Source: Allostella vacuolata
GTDB taxonomy: Bacteria; Pseudomonadota; Alphaproteobacteria; ATCC43930; Allostellaceae
NCBI GenBank assembly: GCA_006739055.1
Contig: AP019702.1
Location: forward strand, 4,923,388 to 4,987,387
Length of the DNA: 64,000 nucleotides
Direction: 5' to 3'
Shown: positions 42,790 through 53,803 of the stretch, in pieces
How the letters are laid out: the number at the start of each line of letters is the position of its first letter
Numbering within the stretch: the first letter of the stretch is position 1
Program-made: the position numbers and the translations under genes
Notes under the pieces: generated by a model
Databases searched by the model: none
What the model was told of the DNA's origin: nothing
The model's input: the letters and a program-made list of their open reading frames with translations, nothing else

Positions 42790-43869
42790 TCAGCCGGCGT
42801 CCACCAGCAGCATCGCGGCGGTGAATCCCGGCCCCAGCGCGGTCATCAGGTGCCGGCCCCGCACCGCCGCGTCGAGGGCCGCGCGCAGCACGAACAGCAC
42901 GGTGACCGAGGACATGTTGCCATGGTCGCGCAGCGTCGCCCGGGCGTGGCTGAGCCGGCCCGGAGCGAGGCCGAAGGCATCCTCCATCGCCTCCAGGACC
43001 CGGGCCCCGCCCGGATGGCACAGGAACCCGTCGAGATCGCTCCACGCCACGCCATGACGGGCGAGGAAGCCGTCCACCACCGGTCGCAGCCGGTCGCGGA
43101 CGAGCACCGGAATGTCGCGCGAGAAGACCACCCGCAGCCCGTCGTCGGCCACGTCCCAGCCCATCACGTCCAGGGTCTCGGGCCAGGTGTGCTCGCCCGA
43201 CGGGCCGAGCCGGGGGCAGGCATCCCCGATCGCGGGATCGTCGCCGCAGCGGACGATCGCCGCCGCCGCGCCGTCGCCGAACAGCGCCGTCGCGACGATG
43301 TTGGTCGGCGACTGGTCCTGGGGACGGAAGGTCAGGCTGCACAGCTCGACCGCCAGCAGCATCACCCGCGATCCGGGGTCGGCGCGGGCCAGGGTCGCGG
43401 CACGGGCCAGGCCCAGGACGCCGCCGGCGCAACCGAGGCCGAACAGCGGCAGGCGCTGCACGTCGGGCCGGAACGGCAGCCGGGCCATCACCCGGGTATC
43501 CAGCCCCGGCGTCGCGATCCCGGACGAGCAGACCGTCACCAGCGTGTCGATATCCGACGCCGCCAGTCCCGCCCGGTCGAGCGCGGCTGCCGCCGCTTCC
43601 GCCAGCAGCGCCACGGCATGGTCCAGGAACAGGCGGTTGCGCTCGGCCGGTCCGTGCGCACGCCGGAACCAGTCGAGCGGCACGCAGGCATGGCGGCGAT
43701 CGATCTTGGCGTGGCGGTAGACCGGCCTCAGACGCGCGAAGCCGCCCCCGGCCCCGGAGAAGATCGCCGCGGCGGCGTCGGCCACCGCGTCCTGGGCCAG
43801 GTCATGCGGCGGAACCGCGGTGGCGAGCGCCAGCAGTCGCGGCGGCGGCGAGGTGTCTTGCGTGGGCAT
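42790..43869 (-). CDS. Type III polyketide synthase
   Basis: A chalcone-synthase-fold enzyme of 359 residues. The Cys-His-Asn triad is Cys147 in LPLFGLGCAGG, His285 in GFLCHPGG and Asn318 in DHGNMSS. VFSRDIPVLV and the C-terminal GPGFTAAMLLVD are typical of bacterial alkylresorcinol/alkylpyrone synthases. These join a fatty acyl starter to malonyl units. The start is ATG at 43869 (MPTQDTS); an upstream ATG at 43947 would add 26 unconserved residues. Two-gene operon with the methyltransferase. Confidence 0.93.
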   Translation of the reverse strand: MPTQDTSPPPRLLALATAVPPHDLAQDAVADAAAAIFSGAGGGFARLRPVYRHAKIDRRHACVPLDWFRRAHGPAERNRLFLDHAVALLAEAAAAALDRAGLAASDIDTLVTVCSSGIATPGLDTRVMARLPFRPDVQRLPLFGLGCAGGVLGLARAATLARADPGSRVMLLAVELCSLTFRPQDQSPTNIVATALFGDGAAAAIVRCGDDPAIGDACPRLGPSGEHTWPETLDVMGWDVADDGLRVVFSRDIPVLVRDRLRPVVDGFLARHGVAWSDLDGFLCHPGGARVLEAMEDAFGLAPGRLSHARATLRDHGNMSSVTVLFVLRAALDAAVRGRHLMTALGPGFTAAMLLVDAG

Positions 43870-44053
43870 GCATGTCCCGATCCCCTGGCATTGCTGGTAC
43901 AGCAGGTCGTGCGGTGCGGCCGATCCGTCAATCGTCCGCGACCCCATGCCCCTTCCCAGCGCCGGTATGCCCCATGGTGCTGTCCCGATCGACCGGCCTC
44001 CGCGCGCGGCGCTTTGCCGGCGCCGCCCGGCCAGACGGCGCCGGAAGCGGCGG

Positions 44054-45664
44054 CTATGCCGCCCTCGCCCCGGCCAGGATCATGTCCGCCCCCTTCTCGG
44101 CGATCATGATCGCGGTGGCGTTGGTGTTGCCGGAGACCACGGTCGGCATGATCGAGGCATCGACCACCCGCAGGCCCTCCATGCCCTTGACCCGCAGGGT
44201 CGTGTCGACGACGGCCGTCGCCTGCGGCCCCATCATGCAGGTGCTGGTCTGGTGGAAGGTCGTGCCGGCGGTGGCGCGGACATGGTTCAGCAGGTCGTCG
44301 TCGCTGACCGCGCCCGGGCCCGGCAGGAACTCCCCGGTGACGACGCGGCGCATGGCCGGGGCCTCGAACACCCGGCGCGCGGCGCGCAGGGCGCCGACCA
44401 TCGTGTCGCGGTCGCCCTGGGTCGAAAGGTAGTTGGCGATCATCCGCGGCGGGACCGCGGGATCCGGCGACTGGATGCGCAGCCAGCCCCGGCTCTCCGG
44501 CCGGCAGGGGATGGCGACGATGGTGCAGCCGGGGAAGTCGTGCATCGGGTCGCCGGCCTTGGGCGAGCTGCCGGCCAGGAACTGGTACTGCACGTCGGGC
44601 GAGGCCAGTTCCGGCCGGGTCTTGAGGAACAGGCCGATCGGCGCGGCCCCGGTCATCAGGGCGCCGCGCTGGGCCAGGATGTACTCCATCCCGGTCAGCG
44701 CCTTGCGCCACCAGCTGCGCGAGATCTCATTGAAGGTGTTGGCGTTGCGCACCCGGTAGATGAGCCGCCCACCCAGATGGTCCTGCAGGTTCATGCCGAC
44801 CCCGGGGAGGTCGTGGACGACCGGGATGCCGAGCGCCTGCGACAGCTCGCCCGGCCCGATGCCCGAGAGCTGGAGGATCTGCGGCGAATTGATGGTGCCG
44901 CCGCACAGCAGCACCTCGCGCCGGGCGCGGGCGCGGCGGACGACGCCGTTCTGCCCGTACTCCACGCCGACCGCCCGCCGCCCCTCGGTCAGGACGCGGT
45001 GGGTCAGCGCCCGGATCTCGACCTTCAGGTTGGGCCGGCGCATCGCCGGCCGCAGGTAGCCGACGGCCGCGCTGCACCGCCGCCGGCCGCGGACGGTCAC
45101 CTGCAGCGGCCCGACCCCTTCCTGCGAGGCGCCGTTGAAATCCGGGTTGAAGGGGTAGCCCGCCTCCTGGGCGGCGGCGATGAAGGCGTCGTGCAGTTCG
45201 TGCGGGGTGCGCAGGTCGGAGACGGCGAGCGGCCCGTCGCCGCCATGGTGGGCGTCGGCGCCGCGCTCCTGGCACTCCGACTTGCGGAAATAGGGCAGGA
45301 CGTCGTCATAGGACCAGCCGGCATTGCCCATCTGACGCCAGAGGTCGAAATCCTCCTTCTGGCCGCGGATGTAGATCAGGCCGTTGATCGAGCTCGACCC
45401 GCCCAGCACCTTGCCGCGCGGCCAGGGGATGCGCCGGCCCATCATCTCCGGCTCCGGCTCGGTCTCGAACTTCCAGGCCACCTTGGGGTTGTAGATGTTG
45501 CGGTAGAAGCCGGCCGGGATGTGGATCCAGGGGTCGGTATCCTTGCCGCCGGCCTCCAGCAGCAGGACCGTGGACTTGCCGTCGGCCGTCAGCCGGTTGG
45601 CGAGCACGCAGCCCGCCGACCCCGCCCCGACGACGATGAAATCGAACTCCGAAACCGCATCCAT
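44054..45664 (-). CDS. GMC-family FAD-dependent oxidoreductase (choline dehydrogenase-like)
   Basis: A 536-residue flavoprotein alcohol dehydrogenase. FAD-binding GAGSAGCVLANRL is at 13-25, PRGKVLGGSSSINGLIYIRG is the first GMC signature, GTINSPQILQLSGIGP the second, and TTFHQTSTCMMG with VVSGNTNATAI hold the catalytic His and Asn. It oxidises an alcohol, though not necessarily choline (no other bet genes). The ATG at 45664 has GGGAGGGGAG upstream. It is 184 bases upstream of the polyketide synthase and could be transcribed with it. Confidence 0.92.
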   Translation of the reverse strand: MDAVSEFDFIVVGAGSAGCVLANRLTADGKSTVLLLEAGGKDTDPWIHIPAGFYRNIYNPKVAWKFETEPEPEMMGRRIPWPRGKVLGGSSSINGLIYIRGQKEDFDLWRQMGNAGWSYDDVLPYFRKSECQERGADAHHGGDGPLAVSDLRTPHELHDAFIAAAQEAGYPFNPDFNGASQEGVGPLQVTVRGRRRCSAAVGYLRPAMRRPNLKVEIRALTHRVLTEGRRAVGVEYGQNGVVRRARARREVLLCGGTINSPQILQLSGIGPGELSQALGIPVVHDLPGVGMNLQDHLGGRLIYRVRNANTFNEISRSWWRKALTGMEYILAQRGALMTGAAPIGLFLKTRPELASPDVQYQFLAGSSPKAGDPMHDFPGCTIVAIPCRPESRGWLRIQSPDPAVPPRMIANYLSTQGDRDTMVGALRAARRVFEAPAMRRVVTGEFLPGPGAVSDDDLLNHVRATAGTTFHQTSTCMMGPQATAVVDTTLRVKGMEGLRVVDASIMPTVVSGNTNATAIMIAEKGADMILAGARAA

Positions 45665-45885
45665 GCTTGGCCGCTCCCCTCCCGCCCGCGGCGCCATCCC
45701 GAGTCGGGCGCCGTCCGGCAGGGGCGAGTATGCCGCGGGCGGACGGCACCGGCCACGGATGCCATGGGGCGGGCCGCGGGAACATCGGCATGGAACCCTT
45801 GGGGTGCCCCACGCGCTTCCAAGGCAGCGCCCGCCGGTTCCAGCGGGCCTTCGCCATGCCCACGACCCGGCCGGAGGAAGACGAC

Positions 45886-48417
45886 ATGCCGCAGGCGGCA
45901 GATACCCGCGAGGCAGGCACCCGCGAGACCGTGATCGTCACCGGCAGCAGCGGCTTCCTCGGCCGTGCCATCGCCCGCCGGCTCGCCCGGAGCTACCGCG
46001 TGTTCGGCTTCGACTTCACCGTTCCCGAGGACAAGCTACCGGGTGTCGAGCCCGTCCAGCTCGACCTGACCAAGGACGACAGCGTCGCCGATGCCGTCCG
46101 GACGGTCGTGGACCGGGCCGGGCCCGCCATCGCCTCGGTCGTCCACCTGGCCGCCTACTACGACCTGTCGGGCGACGAGAACCCGAAATACGACGCGGTG
46201 ACGGTGGAGGGCAGCCGGCGCCTGATGCGCTGCCTGCAGGACCTCGCGGTCGGCCAGTTCATCCTCGCCAGCACCCTGCTGGTCCATCGCCCCACCCTGC
46301 CGGGCCGGCCGATCGACGAGGACTGGCCGATCGATCCCAAGTCCGCCTATCCCGCCTCCAAGGCGCGGACCGAGGCGGCGCTGTCGGCCGAGCATGGCGA
46401 CATCCCGCTGGTCCTGCTGCGGCCGGCCGGCGTCTATGACGAGATGTGCCGGGCGGCGTTCCTGGCGCAGCAGATCGCCAACATCCACGAGCGCCAGGTC
46501 ATCAGCCACCTCTACCCGGGCGAGCTCGACCATGGCCAGCCCTACCTGCACCTGGACGACCTGGTCGACGCCATCGCCCGCATCGTCGACCGCCGAGACC
46601 GCCTGCCCGGCGAGACCGCCCTGCTGCTGGGCGAACGGGAGACGCTGAGCTACGACCAGCTGCAGCGGCTGTTCGGCCGGCTGATCCACGACGAGGAATG
46701 GGAGACCCGGACGGTCCCCAAGGCGATGGCCAAGGCCGGCCAGTGGCTGCAGGAGGACGTGCTCGACATCGACCCCTTCGTCCAGCCCTGGATGATCGAT
46801 CGCGCCGACGACCATTACGAGGTCGACACCACCCGCGCCGAGCAGCTGCTCGACTGGCGGCCGCGCCACCGGCTGGAGGCGACCATCCCGGCGATGATCG
46901 CCGCCTTGAAGAAGGACCCTGCCGCCTGGTACGCGGCCAACAAGCTGAACGCCGAGGCGGTGGCCGCGGCCAAGGTCGAGGAGGCGCCGCCCGAACGGCT
47001 GGCCCCCGGAGAGCGGCGCGACGTGGAGGCCCGGCGGCGCGAGGACCATCGCGCGACCCGCTGGGCCCCGTTCCTGGTGGCGATGCTGGGACTGTGGCTG
47101 CTGGCCAGCCCCTTCACGCTCGGCCTGTTCGACCCGGGCGACGTCACCCCCGTGCCACCGGCGGCCGGGCGGGTCCTGGCCGAACCCGACGTCCGGGACG
47201 GCTGGCTGGCCTGGAGCGACCTCGCCTGCGGCCTCCTGCTGGTGCTGTTCGGAGCGCTCGCTCTCCGTCTCCGGCACGGCTGGGCGCGCTGGGCGACGGC
47301 CGCGGTCGGGACCTGGCTGCTGTTCGCGCCGCTGGTCTTCTGGACCGGCAGTGCCGCCGCCTATGCCAACGACACCATCATAGGCGCGCTTTCGATCCTG
47401 CTGGCCACCTGCTGGTCGAACCCGCCCGGCATCGCCTCGGTCGCGCTCAAGAGCGACGCCGACGTGCCGCTGGGCTGGAGCTACTCGCCGTCCAGCTACT
47501 CGCAGCGGGTGCCGATCGTGGTCCTGGCGTTCGTCGGCTTCCTGCTGTCGCGCTACATGGCGGCGTTCCAGCTGGGCCATGTCGACGCCGCCTGGGACCC
47601 GGTCTTCGGCGACGGGACGGAGACGGTCGTCACCTCCGAGCTGTCCCGCGCCTGGCCGATCGCCGACGCCGGCATGGGCGCCGCCGTCTACCTGATCGAG
47701 GCCCTGACCGGCCTGATCGGCGACCGCCGCCGCTGGCGCACCATGCCGTGGCTGGTCCTGGGATTCGGCCTGCTGATCGTGCCGCTGGGCGCGGTCAGCA
47801 TCGGCTTCATCATCATCCAGCCGGTGCTGATCGGCACCTGGTGCGGCATCTGCCTGGCCACGGCGGTCGTCAGCGTACTGATGATTCCCTATGCGCTCGA
47901 CGAGCTCCTGGCGACGACGCAGTTCCTGTTGCGGGCCCGGCGTGCCGGCCGGCCGCTCTGGCGCACCTTCTGGAAGGGCGGCGACAGCCTGCCCGGCGGC
48001 AAGCGGGAAGCGAGGCCGGACATCGACGCCCCGGTGGGCGAGATGCTGCGGGCCTTCCTCCTGGGTGGGGTCAGCTTCCCCTGGACGCTTGCGGCCTCGA
48101 TCGCGGTCGGCGTGGTGCTGATGGCCACGCGCCTCCTGGCCGGGACCGAGGGGGCGCTCGCCGACAGCGACCATGTCGCCGGCTGCCTCGTCATCACCGT
48201 CGCCGTCACCGCACTGGCCGAGATCGCCCGGCCGGTGCGCTTCCTCAACCTGCCGATCGGCGCCTGGCTGGTCGCCGCACCCTTCGTGCTGGACGGCGGG
48301 GGCGTCGCCTCGGCCGCCGTCGGCATCGTCGCCGGGCTGCTGCTGATCCTGTTGTCGCTGCCCCGCGGCCGGCTGAGCGGCGAGCATTACGGCGGCTGGG
48401 ACAAGGCGATCGTCTGA
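45886..48417 (+). CDS. Fusion protein: NAD-dependent epimerase, SPW repeats and VKOR-like domain
   Basis: An 843-residue, four-part protein. Residues 13-345 are an SDR/epimerase domain with TGSSGFLG (19-26) and YPASK (155-159). A charged linker leads to SPW-type membrane repeats (about 390-515: TRWAPFLVAMLGLWLLASPF, WLLFAPLVFWTG). A VKOR-like domain follows (about 540-680) with WCGIC (Cys653, Cys656) and PWLVLGFGLLIVPLG. The end (725-825) is again SPW-like (FLNLPIGAWLVAAPFVL). The loop cysteine pair of bacterial VKOR is absent. Start ATG 45886 follows GGAGGAAG. About nine to eleven helices in all; function unknown. Confidence 0.85.
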   Translation: MPQAADTREAGTRETVIVTGSSGFLGRAIARRLARSYRVFGFDFTVPEDKLPGVEPVQLDLTKDDSVADAVRTVVDRAGPAIASVVHLAAYYDLSGDENPKYDAVTVEGSRRLMRCLQDLAVGQFILASTLLVHRPTLPGRPIDEDWPIDPKSAYPASKARTEAALSAEHGDIPLVLLRPAGVYDEMCRAAFLAQQIANIHERQVISHLYPGELDHGQPYLHLDDLVDAIARIVDRRDRLPGETALLLGERETLSYDQLQRLFGRLIHDEEWETRTVPKAMAKAGQWLQEDVLDIDPFVQPWMIDRADDHYEVDTTRAEQLLDWRPRHRLEATIPAMIAALKKDPAAWYAANKLNAEAVAAAKVEEAPPERLAPGERRDVEARRREDHRATRWAPFLVAMLGLWLLASPFTLGLFDPGDVTPVPPAAGRVLAEPDVRDGWLAWSDLACGLLLVLFGALALRLRHGWARWATAAVGTWLLFAPLVFWTGSAAAYANDTIIGALSILLATCWSNPPGIASVALKSDADVPLGWSYSPSSYSQRVPIVVLAFVGFLLSRYMAAFQLGHVDAAWDPVFGDGTETVVTSELSRAWPIADAGMGAAVYLIEALTGLIGDRRRWRTMPWLVLGFGLLIVPLGAVSIGFIIIQPVLIGTWCGICLATAVVSVLMIPYALDELLATTQFLLRARRAGRPLWRTFWKGGDSLPGGKREARPDIDAPVGEMLRAFLLGGVSFPWTLAASIAVGVVLMATRLLAGTEGALADSDHVAGCLVITVAVTALAEIARPVRFLNLPIGAWLVAAPFVLDGGGVASAAVGIVAGLLLILLSLPRGRLSGEHYGGWDKAIV

Positions 48418-48535
48418 TCCCGCCGCGCGCCAGGGAGCCGAGGAGCCGGTCACGGCGTTAACACCCGCTGCGGGCCATCCGATGCCCGTGGAGCGGGAAC
48501 CGTCGACGCGTCGAGGAGGACGAAGGGGGCAGCGG

Positions 48536-49285
48536 ATGGGCGAGACGATACCCTATTGCGGGACGGGTCCCGTGCCGGCGGAGATCTGGGCCCGCTGGAA
48601 CATGGATCCGGTGCTGCTGGCCCTGCTCGGCCTGGCCGCGCTGACCCTGGTGCTCCGCCGCCCCGATGGCCACCGCGCGGCCTGCGCCGGCGGCGCCTGG
48701 GCCCTGCTCGCGGTAGCCTTCGTGTCGCCGCTCTGCGCGCTCTCGTCCGCCCTCTTCTCCGCCCGCGCCATCCATCACCTGGTCCTGCTGGTCGGCGCGG
48801 CGCCGCTCATCGCCGCGGCCCTGCCCCGGTCGGCCCTGCCGCGCCGGGGAGGCGGCGGCCTGCTGCTGGCGACCCTGGCGCAGACGATCGCGCTCTGGCT
48901 GTGGCACATGCCCGGCCCCTATGCCGCGGCCCTGGCCAGCGACCCGCTCTACTGGCTGATGCAGGCGACGCTCCTCGGCAGCGCAGTGCTGTTCTGGAGC
49001 ACGCTGCGCGCCGGCCGGCACGACGGCGTGGCCAGCCTGTCGGCACTGCTGGCGACGGTGATGCAGATGGGCCTGCTGGGCGCCCTCCTCACCTTCGTGC
49101 CGGCGCCGCTCTACGCCCCGCACTTCGCGACGACGCTCGCCTGGGGCCTGACGCCGCTGGAGGACCAGCAGCTGGCCGGCCTCGTCATGTGGGTGCCGGC
49201 CGCTCTGCCCTACCTGGCGGCGGCACTCGTTCCCGTCGCCGGCTGGCTCGCGGCCGGACGGCCAAGCCCGGACCCGCGCGCGTGA
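48536..49285 (+). CDS. ctaG: Cytochrome c oxidase assembly protein, CtaG (caa3_CtaG) family
   Basis: A 249-residue membrane protein with about seven helices, of the Caa3_CtaG type (not the Cox11 type). Typical are PYCGTGPVPAEIWARWNMDP near the N-terminus, LFSARAIHHLVLLVGAAPLIA, and ALWLWHMPGPY with conserved histidines for copper. It helps assemble the copper site of heme-copper oxidases. The ATG at 48536 has AAGGGGG upstream; a start at 48482 is possible. The stop overlaps the GTG of the next gene (GTGA). First gene of the oxidase locus. Confidence 0.88.
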   Translation: MGETIPYCGTGPVPAEIWARWNMDPVLLALLGLAALTLVLRRPDGHRAACAGGAWALLAVAFVSPLCALSSALFSARAIHHLVLLVGAAPLIAAALPRSALPRRGGGGLLLATLAQTIALWLWHMPGPYAAALASDPLYWLMQATLLGSAVLFWSTLRAGRHDGVASLSALLATVMQMGLLGALLTFVPAPLYAPHFATTLAWGLTPLEDQQLAGLVMWVPAALPYLAAALVPVAGWLAAGRPSPDPRA

Positions 49286-49809
49286 CCGCGGCGTGGCTGA
49301 AGATCCTGCACATCGCCGCCCTGTCGACCTGGTGCGCGGGCCTGCTGGTCCTGCCCGGGGTGATCGCCCCGCTGGGACGGATGGTCCGGCGCGACGAGTG
49401 GGAGGCGCCGGCGGCCCGGCAGCTGCGCAGCTTCGCCCGGGCCTGCTACCTGGCCGTGGCCTCGCCGGCGGCGGTGCTGACGATCGGCAGCGGCATGGCC
49501 CTGATCTTCCAGCGCGAGGCCTTCGCGCCCTGGCTCTTCGCCAAGCTGCTGCTGGTGGGCGGAATGGCCCTGGTCCACATGCAATGCGGGCGCGTCATCG
49601 TCGGGCTGGCGAAGCCCGACGGGCGGGCCCCGCGCCTCCTGCCGCCCGTGCTGCTGACGGTCGCGGGCGTCCTGATCCTGGGCGTGCTGTGGCTCGTGCT
49701 GGCCAAGCCCGTCATCGACTCGACGCTCTTCCCCGACTGGCTGCGCCGGCCACGGCCGGCGCAGTCCGGCGACGGTCAGTCCTCGTTCTCCAGCATCATG
49801 CCGATCTGA
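49282..49809 (+). CDS. CopD/HemJ-like membrane protein
   Basis: A 175-residue protein with about four helices and conserved histidine-bearing WLKILHIAALSTWCAGLLVLPG at the N-terminus, as in CopD-family and HemJ-like proteins. A Met-His pair (LVHMQCG) is in helix three. It starts at GTG 49282, overlapping the ctaG stop by four bases, so it belongs to the oxidase assembly group; handling of copper or heme is plausible. Its last 34 bases overlap a convergent DUF2231 gene. Confidence 0.82.
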   Translation: MTAAWLKILHIAALSTWCAGLLVLPGVIAPLGRMVRRDEWEAPAARQLRSFARACYLAVASPAAVLTIGSGMALIFQREAFAPWLFAKLLLVGGMALVHMQCGRVIVGLAKPDGRAPRLLPPVLLTVAGVLILGVLWLVLAKPVIDSTLFPDWLRRPRPAQSGDGQSSFSSIMPI

Positions 49810-50261
49810 TGCTCGAACACCAGCTTGCCGCCGTGCCACCCGGCCAGTCCGACGAAGACCGCCGCCAGCCCCGACAGCAGGATGCCCCAGGGCAGCGGCG
49901 AGGCGAGGGGATCGGCCAGCCGCATCCCCCAGTTCGCGCCCGCGACCGAGAGCAGCATCATCGCGGCCACGAAATGCGTCCAGCTGGCGGGCCGGCGGCG
50001 AATGCCAGGGGCGAGCAGGATCTCCACCGTCCCGACCAGGCCCGCCAGCACACCCAGGCCGAAGGCGAAGCCGCTCGCCCACAGGGCGGCGCGGACCCAG
50101 AAGGGGTCGGCCGTCCACCAGAAGAACACGTCGCAGCCGAGCGTGGACATGACCAGGGCGATCGGGAAGGTGACCATCATTGCGTGGATCGGGTGGCCGG
50201 CGAGCGCCACCCGCGAGCTGATGTCGTGGTAGCGGGGGTCGCGCAGGTGGGGCTCGGTCAT
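49776..50261 (-). CDS. DUF2231 membrane protein
   Basis: A 161-residue protein with four membrane helices. The HPIHAMMVTFPIAL motif near residue 23 is the DUF2231 hallmark, with further conserved GLVGTVEILL and HFVAAMMLLSVAG. Often linked to cytochromes and heme-copper oxidase genes; possibly heme-binding (inference). It lies on the opposite strand inside the oxidase locus, overlapping the CopD-like gene tail by 34 bases and, with its start, the likely coxB start by 15 bases. Confidence 0.85.
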   Translation of the reverse strand: MTEPHLRDPRYHDISSRVALAGHPIHAMMVTFPIALVMSTLGCDVFFWWTADPFWVRAALWASGFAFGLGVLAGLVGTVEILLAPGIRRRPASWTHFVAAMMLLSVAGANWGMRLADPLASPLPWGILLSGLAAVFVGLAGWHGGKLVFEHQIGMMLENED

Positions 50262-51293
50262 GCCATCGGCTTCCGTTGGCTCGGGTGGGGTCCAGGTGGC
50301 GCGGCCGGCCACCCCCGTGCAACGCGGCGCGGCCGCCGGGGTTTCCTGCTGCCGGCCGCGGCCGGCGTCCTCGCCGGGTGCGAAGGCCCCCTGTCGGCCC
50401 TCGATCCGGCCGGCCCCGGGGCGGCCGGCATCGCCATGCTCTGGTGGTGGATGCTGGGCGGGGCGACCGTGATCCTGGCCGCCGTGATGGGCCTTCTGTT
50501 CTATGCCTTGCGGACCGACACGCCGCGGCGGGCCCCGTCGACGCTGATGCTGCTCGGCGGGGCGGGGATGGCCCTCCCCCTGCTGGTGCTGACCCTGCTG
50601 CTGGTCTTTTCCCTGCGCACCGGCGAGGCGCTGCTGCCCCGCGCCAACGGCGAGACGCCGTTCCGGGTCGAGGCCCATGCCCGGCAATGGTGGTGGGAAT
50701 TCATCTACCCGGACGTCGAAGGCCGGCCGCTGCACACGGCGGGCGAGCTGCACATCCCGGCCGGGCGGGCGGTCGAGGTGCGGGTCGTCGCCCATGACGT
50801 GATCCACAGCTTCTGGGTGCCGCGCCTCGGCGGCAAGATGGACGCCATTCCCGGCCACCCCAACCGCATCCGCCTGCAGGCGGATGCGCCCGGCACCTAT
50901 CGCGGCCAATGCGCGGAGTTCTGCGGCGTGCAGCACACCTTCATGGGCTTCCTGGTCATCGCCCATGCCGAGGACCGCTTCGGCGAGCGGATGCAGGCCC
51001 TGGCCCGCCCGCCCGCCGCCGACCACCCCGGGGCGGCCGACTTCGCGGCATCCTGCGGCGCCTGCCACAGCGCCGACGCGCGCCGCCCGCACGGCGCCGG
51101 GCCGAACCTGGCCGGCGTCGCCAGCCGGCGCTGGCTGGGCGGCGGGGCGCTGGCGGACGACGCGCCGGACCGGTTCATCCGCTGGATCGCCCGGCACCCG
51201 GAGCTGAAGCCCGGCAGCCGCGAGCCCGACCACGCGCTGCTGCCGGCCGACGCGGCCGGGCGGATCGCCCGCTTCCTGGAGGACCTGCGTTGA
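50247..51293 (+). CDS. coxB: Cytochrome c oxidase subunit II with C-terminal cytochrome c domain
   Basis: Caa3-type subunit II. A lipoprotein-like leader (RRGRRGFLLPAAAGVLAGC, lipobox Cys45) is followed by two membrane helices and the CuA domain (ARQWWWEFIYPD, GTYRGQCAEFCGVQHTFMGF holding Cys, Glu, Cys, His, Met), then a cytochrome c domain with CGACH. The cytochrome c domain makes it independent of a soluble donor. No ATG, GTG or TTG is in frame near the leader except GTG at 50247, which overlaps the start of the divergent DUF2231 gene. The start is therefore tentative. Its stop overlaps the TTG start of the next gene. Confidence 0.88.
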   Translation: MGLGHAIGFRWLGWGPGGAAGHPRATRRGRRGFLLPAAAGVLAGCEGPLSALDPAGPGAAGIAMLWWWMLGGATVILAAVMGLLFYALRTDTPRRAPSTLMLLGGAGMALPLLVLTLLLVFSLRTGEALLPRANGETPFRVEAHARQWWWEFIYPDVEGRPLHTAGELHIPAGRAVEVRVVAHDVIHSFWVPRLGGKMDAIPGHPNRIRLQADAPGTYRGQCAEFCGVQHTFMGFLVIAHAEDRFGERMQALARPPAADHPGAADFAASCGACHSADARRPHGAGPNLAGVASRRWLGGGALADDAPDRFIRWIARHPELKPGSREPDHALLPADAAGRIARFLEDLR

Positions 51294-53803
51294 GCGGCAC
51301 CCCGCAACGGTCGGAGCCCGGCGCCTCCACGGCCAACCCTCCCCCACCCGGACTCGACGGCGCGCTGGAGGCCCTCTGGGGCACGCCGCGGGGCTGGGGC
51401 CGGCTGTCGGCCGTCAACCATACGATCGTCGGCCGGCGCTTCATCGTCACCGCCTTCGTCTTCTTCGCGATCGGCGGGCTACTGGCGATGCTGATCCGCG
51501 CGCAGCTGGCGACCCCGGCCAACGCCTTCCTGGGTGCCGCCGTCTACAACCAGATCTTCACCATGCATGGCACGGTGATGATGTTCCTGTTCGCCATCCC
51601 GATGTTCGAGGGGCTGGCGGTCTACCTGCTGCCGAAGATGCTGGGGGCGCGCGACCTCGCCTTCCCGCGCCTCAGCGCCTACGGCTACTGGTGCTATCTC
51701 TTCGGCGGGGCGCTGGTGGTGGGATCGCTGGTCCTGGGCGTCGCCCCCGACAGCGGCTGGTTCATGTACACGCCCCTGTCGTCGCGACCCTATTCGCCCG
51801 GGATCCATGCCGACGTCTGGCTGATCGGCATCACCTTCGTCGAGGTGTCGGCCGTCGCGGCCGCGGTCGAGATCGTGGTGTCGGTGCTGAAGGTCCGCGC
51901 CGCGGGCATGGCGCTCAATCGCATGCCGATCTTCGCCTGGTACCTGCTGGTGACGGCGGGGATGATGCTGGTCGGCTTCCCGCCGCTGATCCTGGGCTCG
52001 ATCCTGCTGGAGCTGGAGCGGGCCTTCGGCTGGCCCTTCTTCGACCCGCTCCGCGGCGGCGACCCGCTCTTGTGGCAGCACCTGTTCTGGCTGTTCGGCC
52101 ATCCCGAGGTCTACATCATCTTCCTGCCGGCGGCGGGCGTGGTCTCGACCGTGCTGCCGGTCTTTGCCCGCCGCCCGCTGGTCGGCTACAGCTGGATCGT
52201 CGTCAGCATCATCGCCATGGCCTTCCTCAGCTTCGGGCTGTGGGTGCACCACATGTTCGCCGTCGGCATCCCGCACCTGGCGCTGGGCTTCTTCTCGGCC
52301 GCCAGCATGATGGTGGCGATCCCGACCGCCGTGCAGATCTTCGCCTGGATCGGCACCCTGCTGCGCGGCCGGCCGGTCTTCCAGCTGCCGATGCTGTTCA
52401 TCTGCGGCTTCTTCTTCATCTTCGTGGCGGGCGGGCTGACCGGCGTGATGCTGGCGGTGGTGCCGTTCGACTGGCAGGTGCACGACACCCACTTCGTGGT
52501 CGCCCACCTGCACTATGTCCTGATCGGCGGCTTCCTGTTCCCGATGATGGCCGGCGCCTACTATTGGCTGCCGCATTTCACCGGCCGGATGCCCGTGCAC
52601 CATCTCGGCACCGCGTCCTTCTGGCTGGTGTTCGTCGGCTTCAACCTGACCTTCCTGCCGATGCACCTGACGGGGCTGCTCGGCATGCCGCGGCGGGTCT
52701 ACACCTATGCGCCCGGCCTCGGCTGGGACGCCCTCAACCTGCTGTCCTCGGTCGCCTCGTTCGTGATGGCGATCGGCTTCGCGCTGTTCGTCGTCGACAT
52801 CGCCCTGCAGCGGCGCTTCGGCCGGCCGGCGCCGGCCGACCCCTGGGGGGCGGGGACGCTGGAATGGGCGATGCCCCTGCCCCCGCCCAGCTACAACTTC
52901 GCCAGCCAGCCGGCGGTGGACGGCCCCCTGGAGCCGACGCGGCTGGCGACGGCGATCATGACCGGCGAGCAGCATCTGGGCGTCACCCGCAACGGCTGGC
53001 GGGAGACGCTGGGGGTGGACGCCGCGACCGGCCGGCCCGACCAGGTCCTGCTGCTGCCCGGCCCGACCTTCCTGCCGCTGTGGATGGCGCTGGCGACCGG
53101 CACCTTCTTCGTCTCCGCACTCTTCAAGCTCTACCTGCTGTCGCTCGCCGGTGCCGCAGCCGTGCTGGTCCTCGCGATCCTGTGGCTGTGGAGCATGGGC
53201 GAGCGGCGCGATCCGCCACTGGTGCCGATCGGCCTCGGTCAGTCGGCGCTGGCGGGGCCGGCCGACCGGCGCTCGCCGCTCCATGCCGCGCTCGCCTGCA
53301 CGCTGGTCGCCGACGCCTCGTTCTTCGCCTCGCTCGCCTTCGGCTATGCCTTCCTGTGGGTGATCGCGCCCAACTGGCCGCCGCCCGCGCTCCCGGCGCC
53401 GAGCCCGGCCCTGGCCGCCATGGCGGCGGCGGGGCTGGTCGCGACGACGCTGGGCGCCTGGCGGGCCGGCCGCGCCCGCTCGCCGGTCGCACCGCTCGCC
53501 CTGTCGGCGCTGGGCGCCGCGGTCGCGATGGGCGCCCTGGCCGCGACGATCGACCGGCTGCCGTCGGTGTCGGCCCATGCCTACGGCGCCGCCTCGGCCG
53601 CGCTCGGCGCCTATGCGCTGTTCCACTGCGGGCTGGCGCTGGTGGCCGCGCTCTACACCATCGCCCGGGTCCGGGCCGGGTTCGTCTCGCCCGTGCGCCA
53701 TCTGGCCTTGTGCAACACGCGCCTTCTGGCCGGATATGCGGCGGTCACCGGCCTGATCGTGGTGGCGCTGCTGCACGCGGTGCCCGCCATGGTCGCGCCG
53801 TGA
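51290..53803 (+). CDS. Fused cytochrome c oxidase subunits I and III
   Basis: An 837-residue fusion. Subunit I (about 1-580) has the heme and CuB ligands in FTMHGTVMMF, LFGHPEVY (with the proton-channel glutamate, A1-type), WVHHMFAVG and HDTHFVVAHLHY. Subunit III follows (about 590-837), with HAALACTLVADASFFASLAFGYAFLWV and a shorter helical set. It reduces oxygen to water in the inner membrane with proton pumping. The start is TTG at 51290, overlapping the coxB stop (TTGA); the stop overlaps the GTG of the following gene (GTGA). Confidence 0.93.
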   Translation: MSGTPQRSEPGASTANPPPPGLDGALEALWGTPRGWGRLSAVNHTIVGRRFIVTAFVFFAIGGLLAMLIRAQLATPANAFLGAAVYNQIFTMHGTVMMFLFAIPMFEGLAVYLLPKMLGARDLAFPRLSAYGYWCYLFGGALVVGSLVLGVAPDSGWFMYTPLSSRPYSPGIHADVWLIGITFVEVSAVAAAVEIVVSVLKVRAAGMALNRMPIFAWYLLVTAGMMLVGFPPLILGSILLELERAFGWPFFDPLRGGDPLLWQHLFWLFGHPEVYIIFLPAAGVVSTVLPVFARRPLVGYSWIVVSIIAMAFLSFGLWVHHMFAVGIPHLALGFFSAASMMVAIPTAVQIFAWIGTLLRGRPVFQLPMLFICGFFFIFVAGGLTGVMLAVVPFDWQVHDTHFVVAHLHYVLIGGFLFPMMAGAYYWLPHFTGRMPVHHLGTASFWLVFVGFNLTFLPMHLTGLLGMPRRVYTYAPGLGWDALNLLSSVASFVMAIGFALFVVDIALQRRFGRPAPADPWGAGTLEWAMPLPPPSYNFASQPAVDGPLEPTRLATAIMTGEQHLGVTRNGWRETLGVDAATGRPDQVLLLPGPTFLPLWMALATGTFFVSALFKLYLLSLAGAAAVLVLAILWLWSMGERRDPPLVPIGLGQSALAGPADRRSPLHAALACTLVADASFFASLAFGYAFLWVIAPNWPPPALPAPSPALAAMAAAGLVATTLGAWRAGRARSPVAPLALSALGAAVAMGALAATIDRLPSVSAHAYGAASAALGAYALFHCGLALVAALYTIARVRAGFVSPVRHLALCNTRLLAGYAAVTGLIVVALLHAVPAMVAP

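Follow-up and report, generated by a model that had tools for sequence, protein, structure and literature searches.

Closest described systems

Two described families come closest to the protein treated here. The VKOR family (PF07884), with structures from human, Takifugu and Synechococcus, is marked by a CxxC motif (human Cys132/Cys135), by Ser57 and by a pair of loop cysteines (human Cys43/Cys51), which PMC4555120 describes as fully conserved. The extended short-chain dehydrogenases/reductases (SDR) and nucleotide-sugar epimerase-reductases (PF01370) include 2pk3, a GDP-4-keto-6-deoxymannose reductase, and the UDP-glucose 4-epimerases. The gene P0001 of Allostella vacuolata encodes domains of both families in one chain of 843 residues, in the order Epimerase-SPW-VKOR-SPW. 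It lies within a stretch of 64,000 nucleotides of contig AP019702.1 (positions 4,923,388 to 4,987,387 of the forward strand), referred to here as the window.

P0001 shares with VKOR the Pfam profile, the ranking in fold comparison, the CxxC motif and the equivalent of Ser57. Unlike VKOR, the clade of P0001 has no loop cysteine pair, carries D/E and T/S at these positions, and is flanked by SPW units and an SDR. As the loop pair is missing, the clade should not be filed as canonical VKOR; the VKOR fold takes a new form in it. At the quinone, it may nevertheless act as canonical VKOR does. With the extended SDRs P0001 shares the TGxxGxxG sequence and the S/T-Y-K set, and they are its best fold matches. 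It differs from them in the fusion to a membrane unit, the SDR being a separate gene in other phyla.

Nearer relatives are already present in public records under generic names. Full-length homologues (Sinorhizobium pSymB and others), named ‘NAD-dependent epimerase/dehydratase family protein’, have the architecture of P0001 end to end. Their neighbourhoods differ from that of P0001: in place of an oxidase there is either katC with sugar ABC genes or a metal island. SPW-VKOR-SPW proteins of haloarchaea, Manganitrophus and an Acidobacteriota metagenome-assembled genome (MAG) bear the annotation ‘vitamin K epoxide reductase family protein’ or, alternatively, ‘SPW repeat protein’. They contain the membrane unit, the loop substitutions and the CxxC as in P0001; unlike P0001 they have no fused SDR, adjoin a GH15 and an SDR gene, and in some cases carry a heavy-metal-binding domain (HMBD). 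A literature search by titles and the starts of abstracts, with most subscription papers outside its coverage, gave no description of the fusion among the matches listed. Since this clade of Bacteria and haloarchaea has dispensed with the loop cysteines and still has the fold, in most cases with the CxxC, it is a natural experiment on what the VKOR active site can do by itself.

Domain architecture and fold

The frame consists of 843 codons and a stop, starting from the ATG at 45886, with a GGAGGA stretch before it. The four-part fusion proposed in the initial annotation, which was read from the sequence alone, is borne out by profile search. The Pfam Epimerase match scores 79.2 bits (cut-off 20.9), the VKOR match 72.5 bits (cut-off 27.5; E 4.8e-20) and the SPW match 65.9 bits (cut-off 31.5). 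The SPW match has three stretches, the best over the first unit (393-507) and the others C-terminal; in several relatives the C-terminal unit is the best-scoring SPW stretch. The motifs TGSSGFLG, YPASK and WCGIC, named in the same annotation, are all present in the translation. Among the 25 NCBIfam models listed, none came close to its cut-off, the best having 41.8 bits against 367.65. P0001 is the sole VKOR match of the genome, which has a separate DsbB match. A chance frame or an assembly artefact is ruled out by the end-to-end homologues in the genus and on plasmids. A scan of 45600-48700 for consensus promoters and terminators gave no match, which carries little weight in a non-model genome.

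A model of residues 366-843 has a mean pLDDT of 81.4 and a pTM of 0.80. When it was compared with VIA-align, ranks 1-9 were all VKOR chains, with Z 10.1-11.2 over 126-140 residues, although for helical bundles any Z below about 13 can reflect no more than a common helical arrangement. Among unrelated rows the highest Z was 10.0 for the SPW part and 8.7 for the VKOR part. Foldseek of the same model found nothing at E 0.001, its VKOR rows standing at E 0.75 or worse, and no solved structure matched the membrane alignment by sequence, with E values up to 10 allowed. The VKOR fold of the modelled membrane part is taken as established from Pfam and VIA-align together. In the full-length model the SDR is good and the placement of the domains relative to each other is weak (mean pLDDT 72.6, pTM 0.48); in the PDB it comes closest to reductases and epimerases of nucleotide sugars.

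The SPW-VKOR-SPW membrane unit has 12 predicted helices and a short linker to the SDR. The topology was assigned with the helix ends seen in the models, except that the eighth helix was cut by hand at residue 672. The predicted inside loops contain 28 lysine and arginine residues (20 without the linker), the outside loops two. The SDR is predicted to be cytoplasmic and the CxxC to lie at the periplasmic end of a helix, so that the SDR and the membrane redox site would be on opposite sides of the membrane, with the full-length model of low confidence between them.

The loop and the CxxC motif

Conservation was counted over 47 relatives, hand-picked from the fetched loci, with close relatives remaining among the rows. 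Omitted were duplicates or near-duplicates (L049, L083, L090, L097, L098, L134), fragments or broken copies (the membrane parts of L036 and L043; L056, L103, L124, L132, L133) and L101, which is incomplete in sequence and has no CxxC.

The cysteines of P0001 are at positions 116, 188, 448, 509, 653, 656 and 767. None falls within 510-652, in agreement with the earlier statement that the loop pair is missing. This absence extends to the whole family, as the canonical loop pair is absent from 47/47 relatives. Position 571 is D/E and position 578 is T/S in every one of them. In 44 rows there is no cysteine anywhere in 538-650; in the other three, cysteines within 556-605 occur only ahead of the loop, and L039 has two more elsewhere in 538-650.

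The positions were assigned by alignment with canonical VKOR proteins. L109, a single-domain VKOR of 154 residues from another genome of the class (Pfam VKOR 37.9 bits), has VWCPIFGRGCE where the family has VWDPFFGNGTE, which sets its loop cysteines against D571 and T578. In L108, a second canonical VKOR, the second cysteine again falls at T578 and the first a few columns after D571. A third, L107, fell below the search threshold in the alignment. Since L108 and L109 disagree, the equivalence of the first cysteine with D571 is the less sure; as read from the sequences, the loop pair is gone whichever alignment is used.

Other residues of the domain are strictly kept. P572, S584, S587 and W617 are invariant in the 47 rows, S584 being the equivalent of Ser57 by spacing. 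An ordinary VKOR disulfide oxidase acting on periplasmic proteins, with the SDR as an unrelated passenger, would agree with this serine, with the profile, fold and CxxC, and with the DsbA/DsbE-type genes in some metal loci. It is nevertheless very unlikely, as loop cysteines described as fully conserved in VKOR (PMC4555120) are absent throughout, and the genome has its own DsbB match.

The initial annotation had let its redox idea depend on a VKOR match and on conservation of the C653/C656 pair, the equivalents of human Cys132/Cys135. The match was found, whereas the pair is conserved with exceptions: both cysteines are present in 40/47 relatives, and neither in seven (L044, L052, L053, L055, L085, L099, L125). 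On a quick tree of the 47 membrane parts the change requires two steps in a grouped table, which leaves out 28 ungrouped rows, and three with all rows. It is read as loss rather than gain because canonical VKOR has the motif. As the two cysteines are always lost together, the sequences suggest that, wherever they occur, they function as a pair.

That some lineages keep the domain and have no CxxC shows the domain to be of use without the motif. It is possible, if rather doubtful, that the VKOR/SPW part is a structural anchor holding the SDR and linker at the membrane, with the CxxC as a relic. At least two losses of the CxxC have left the domain in place, and the CxxC-less L044, L053 and L055, the three such proteins scanned, still exceed the Pfam VKOR cut-off. 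Against a mere anchor stand the pairwise retention or loss of the motif, never by halves in 47 rows, and the four invariant residues named above.

A separate small VKOR type was seen in genome G046 (L135, 9117-9578), a single-domain protein with canonical loop cysteines, adjoining DoxX and DUF2063 genes; it served for comparison.

The SDR domain

The glycine motif and Y155/K159 are intact in P0001. The catalytic tyrosine and lysine are kept in 42 of the 43 relatives that have letters at those positions, including all seven rows without CxxC. The aligned exception is the Cupriavidus fusion L045, where both are lost and the CxxC is retained. The SDR pair and the CxxC are each lost without the other; the two centres are therefore separable, and a linear chain from NAD to quinone is unlikely. 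Four Cupriavidus-type proteins (L045, L090, L097, L098) have the full architecture and no YxxxK, by alignment for L045 and by pattern check for the others.

Distribution of fused and separate forms

The genome survey proposed earlier recovered full-length homologues, and the Epimerase-SPW-VKOR-SPW order is a standing family architecture and no singleton. Two of the three genus mates in the sample have homologues 81% and 73% identical over nearly the full length; the third, G003, has no fusion match. A Rhizobium etli plasmid copy is 54.7% identical over 100%, and the top Rhizobium and Sinorhizobium plasmid copies are about 53-55% identical over 98-100%. There are matches in 142 plasmid records, 117 of them with a place covering at least 80% of the fusion; 73 of the 142 are from Sinorhizobium. 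The fusion was found in 5/385 genomes of the class (its own genome and one genus mate counted), in 6/398 of the phylum (its own genome counted), in 8/105 of one family and in 5/200 of another, all of one genus. The membrane part was found in 8/369 genomes of the class of G759, an Alteromonas-type genome (the centre genome counted; two of the eight partial or interrupted). The fusion is widespread yet patchy, and often plasmid-borne. PMC6803676 mentions a hypothetical VKOR common to plasmids and a plasmid-like metal-resistance region; it is not equated here with the fusion family.

In Gemmataceae, Bryobacteraceae, a cyanobacterial MAG and Chlamydiae MAGs, the SDR and SPW-VKOR-SPW occur as separate adjoining frames. 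A GH15 gene stands between the two frames in a Bryobacteraceae MAG. Separate forms correspond to two changes in the grouped table of the tree, or three with all 47 rows. Haloarchaea and Manganitrophus have the membrane part with GH15 and an annotated SDR. The latter was not recovered as a relative of the fusion SDR at E 1e-10, and that of Manganitrophus is adh_short by Pfam. In Cupriavidus, a GH15 and an annotated SDR gene lie just ahead of the fusion whose own epimerase has lost Tyr/Lys.

Some copies are misnamed or broken. In two Rhizobium plasmid records the whole protein or just the membrane half goes under the plainly mistaken name ‘DNA polymerase III subunit epsilon’ (L055, 10097-12460, CP007068.1; L056, 10028-10954, LR606151.1). 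The frame is apparently disrupted in the membrane part in L043 (9980-12607, a Paraburkholderia plasmid) and L124 (6949-9240, genome G1097). Viral contigs held no relative of the membrane part or of the Manganitrophus GH15, with a few short peptide patterns for each; this GH15 had no match to solved structures by sequence at E 0.001.

Gene neighbourhoods

Neighbouring genes were counted by uniform labelling in 53 loci of 3 to 27 kb, several per genus or genome, and in 25 control stretches (20 from genomes, five from plasmids). Among the plasmid controls is one with an oxidase cluster and Ku of its own. The loci overlap with the 47 rows (L037 is in both), L092 being only among the rows and L036, L043, L101, L103, L124, L132 and L133 only among the loci. 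Any of the four neighbour classes was present in 39/53 loci against 5/25 controls, a contrast that is inflated since the labels derive partly from the counted loci and own-source matches are circular. By class the counts were 19/53 against 3/25 for metal genes, 14/53 against none of 25 for sugar genes (non-source matches: L034, L035, L102, L130, L131, L133), 6/53 against 2/25 for oxidase genes and 7/53 against 1/25 for Ku/LigD/catalase.

The position of P0001 just upstream of an oxidase locus, noted at the outset, is confirmed; CtaG begins 64 bases past the fusion on the same strand, at the first listed ATG, and is followed by UPF0093, COX2 and COX1. The oxidase neighbour recurs outside the genus. 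Both fusion copies of G759 have oxidase genes beside them: one has the same score as the pMIT1002 plasmid copy, the Alteromonas plasmid having the window's oxidase gene set beside its fusion, and the second lies with CtaG-CoxI-CoxII. A CoxI gene is near one Rhizobium leguminosarum plasmid copy, and a small cytochrome c gene is near the split relatives L128 and L131.

These neighbours, the joining of SDR and VKOR-like domain in one chain, and the state of the branch to which P0001 belongs, with neither centre lost and an oxidase adjoining, would suit a linear quinone-linked dehydrogenase. Such an enzyme, put forward in the initial annotation, would oxidise a substrate at the SDR and pass electrons through the CxxC to quinone, feeding the adjacent oxidase. 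The oxidase link has held beyond the genus; the proposed function now appears very unlikely. Pfam finds no flavin domain in the 843 residues able to relay hydride electrons, the SDR and CxxC are on opposite membrane sides by predicted topology, and each centre is lost alone, the CxxC in 7/47 with Tyr/Lys kept and the reverse in Cupriavidus. The separate-gene forms of other phyla also speak against it.

Copper, mercury or other metal genes are found near several relatives. An HMBD lies ahead of the membrane part in seven (L034, L035, L038, L128, L129, L130, L131; Pfam), with one to four stretches, three in L129 and four in L130. A regular expression gave eight HMBD-like matches, one of which (G002), in frame upstream of the domain, was counted as chance. 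At least nine of the 60 residues before the first helix are His or Met in 11/47 rows, some of them HMBD bearers. These domains and linkers, the metal labels counted above and the D/E at the loop site in every row would fit a metal or small-thiol site made of the acidic loop and CxxC, at which Cu(I) or a low-molecular-weight thiol is oxidised and quinone accepts the electrons. This is quite unlikely, since the HMBD and linker are predicted to be cytoplasmic and the metal-island members L044 and L099 have no CxxC.

Sugar-breakdown genes form the other recurrent set. In haloarchaea, Nitrospirota, Acidobacteriota, Planctomycetota and Cupriavidus, the SPW-VKOR gene or the fusion adjoins GH15, accompanied by an SDR. 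Relatives from the class of G759 are followed by varying combinations of isoamylase, small cytochrome c, transaldolase/transketolase and G6PD genes. The recurring GH15/SDR/SPW-VKOR set, together with the HMBD domains, suggests that sugar oxidation is linked to metal stress.

Several single loci are of separate note. In Sinorhizobium meliloti pSymB (L050, 10701-20870) the fusion stands between a sugar ABC/Gfo-Idh set and ZIP, DNA-ligase and catalase genes. Ku-LigD, sometimes with catalase, is near L087, L088, L093, L095, L103 and L127. A Sphingomonas paucimobilis plasmid (L053, 1-22325) has a CxxC-less fusion amid GroEL, Hsp20, YfdX, DUF308, K+ efflux, Do-type protease and sugar genes, a locus which we take to resemble the transmissible heat and stress tolerance loci. 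One control stretch, on an Aurantiacibacter plasmid (L156, 3928-20001), has an oxidase cluster accompanied by genes for an assembly factor, DUF2231, sorbosone dehydrogenase and Ku, and the same plasmid also carries a copper-island fusion.

Proposed function

Because relatives recur near metal-resistance, sugar-breakdown and oxidase genes, a metal- or stress-linked enzyme is probable. The reading tentatively preferred, which may well be wrong, is that P0001 is a metal- or stress-linked SDR of sugar type, tethered to a non-canonical VKOR-like quinone-site unit in the membrane that anchors and tunes more than it conducts. The cytoplasmic SDR would have a sugar or sugar-nucleotide as its substrate and belong to a pathway that may mobilise glucan or glucose under metal or oxidative stress. 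The membrane unit would hold a quinone in the VKOR pocket. Where present, the CxxC could form a disulfide against this quinone without a thioredoxin relay. The unit and its linker, metal-binding in some relatives, would anchor and tune the SDR, with no straight electron path from NADH through the SDR to quinone.

Several points weigh against this proposal, besides the circular labels mentioned with the counts. That the membrane part tunes the SDR is inferred. The loss of Tyr/Lys in Cupriavidus means that SDR chemistry is not needed in every member. The linker of P0001 has no HMBD, with one His and one Met, and the 21 kb of the window locus contain no metal-resistance label, so the metal link may fail for this branch. 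Moreover, 14/53 loci, some of them short, are without any neighbour class; they include Desertibaculum, G136, G081, G584, Sulfitobacter and Phyllobacterium, and of these Desertibaculum, G136 and Phyllobacterium are among the nearest rows to P0001 on the tree.

A broader and more speculative picture, quite improbable, is that of a mobile metal-responsive module for carbohydrate oxidation (GH15/isoamylase, SDR, G6PD-type). It would be coupled to the membrane through a new VKOR-fold class with an acidic/threonine loop pair; in place of a thioredoxin, a metal ion or small thiol would serve its CxxC directly, and the electrons would end at quinone and, in some branches, at the copper oxidase next to it in the genome.

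Features of the window locus

The coordinates of the gene, its domains and its neighbours are collected in Table 1.

Table 1. Position of P0001, its domains and motifs, and adjoining genes in the window.
Feature	Coordinates	Strand	Basis
Gene P0001, Epimerase-SPW-VKOR-SPW fusion, 843 residues	45886..48417	+	Open frame, Pfam, full-length homologues
Epimerase (extended SDR) domain, residues 16-241; TGSSGFLG, Y155-x3-K159	45931..46608	+	Pfam
First SPW unit, residues 393-507, four predicted helices	47062..47406	+	Pfam, models
VKOR-like domain, residues 543-670	47512..47895	+	Pfam; model matched to VKOR structures
Predicted periplasmic loop D571-T578, site of the canonical VKOR loop cysteines	47596..47619	+	Alignment with canonical VKOR L109
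C653-G-I-C656 motif	47842..47853	+	Both Cys in 40/47 relatives
Second SPW-like unit, about residues 733-824	48082..48357	+	Predicted helices; Pfam SPW stretches
Divergent GMC oxidoreductase gene	44054..45697	-	Pfam; also beside the fusion in both fusion-bearing genus mates
CtaG (caa3 oxidase assembly factor), first gene of the oxidase locus	48482..49285	+	Pfam
Oxidase locus: UPF0093 membrane protein, COX2, COX1; DUF2231 on the other strand	49291..53803	+	Pfam

The window and the genus mates G001 and G002 have in common the GMC, fusion, CtaG, CopD-like/UPF0093, DUF2231, CoxII and CoxI genes; the CopD-like matches are weak, at 38-44 bits. The GMC oxidoreductase was rejected as a conserved partner, as it directly adjoins the fusion only in this genus. 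L032 has a weaker GMC match about 9 kb away, and the neighbour of the Alteromonas fusion is a Rieske/FAD-type reductase, not GMC. Beyond the GMC gene, at 42790-43947 of the window, are a type III polyketide synthase-like frame and then a methyltransferase-like frame, both named by reading of the sequence alone.

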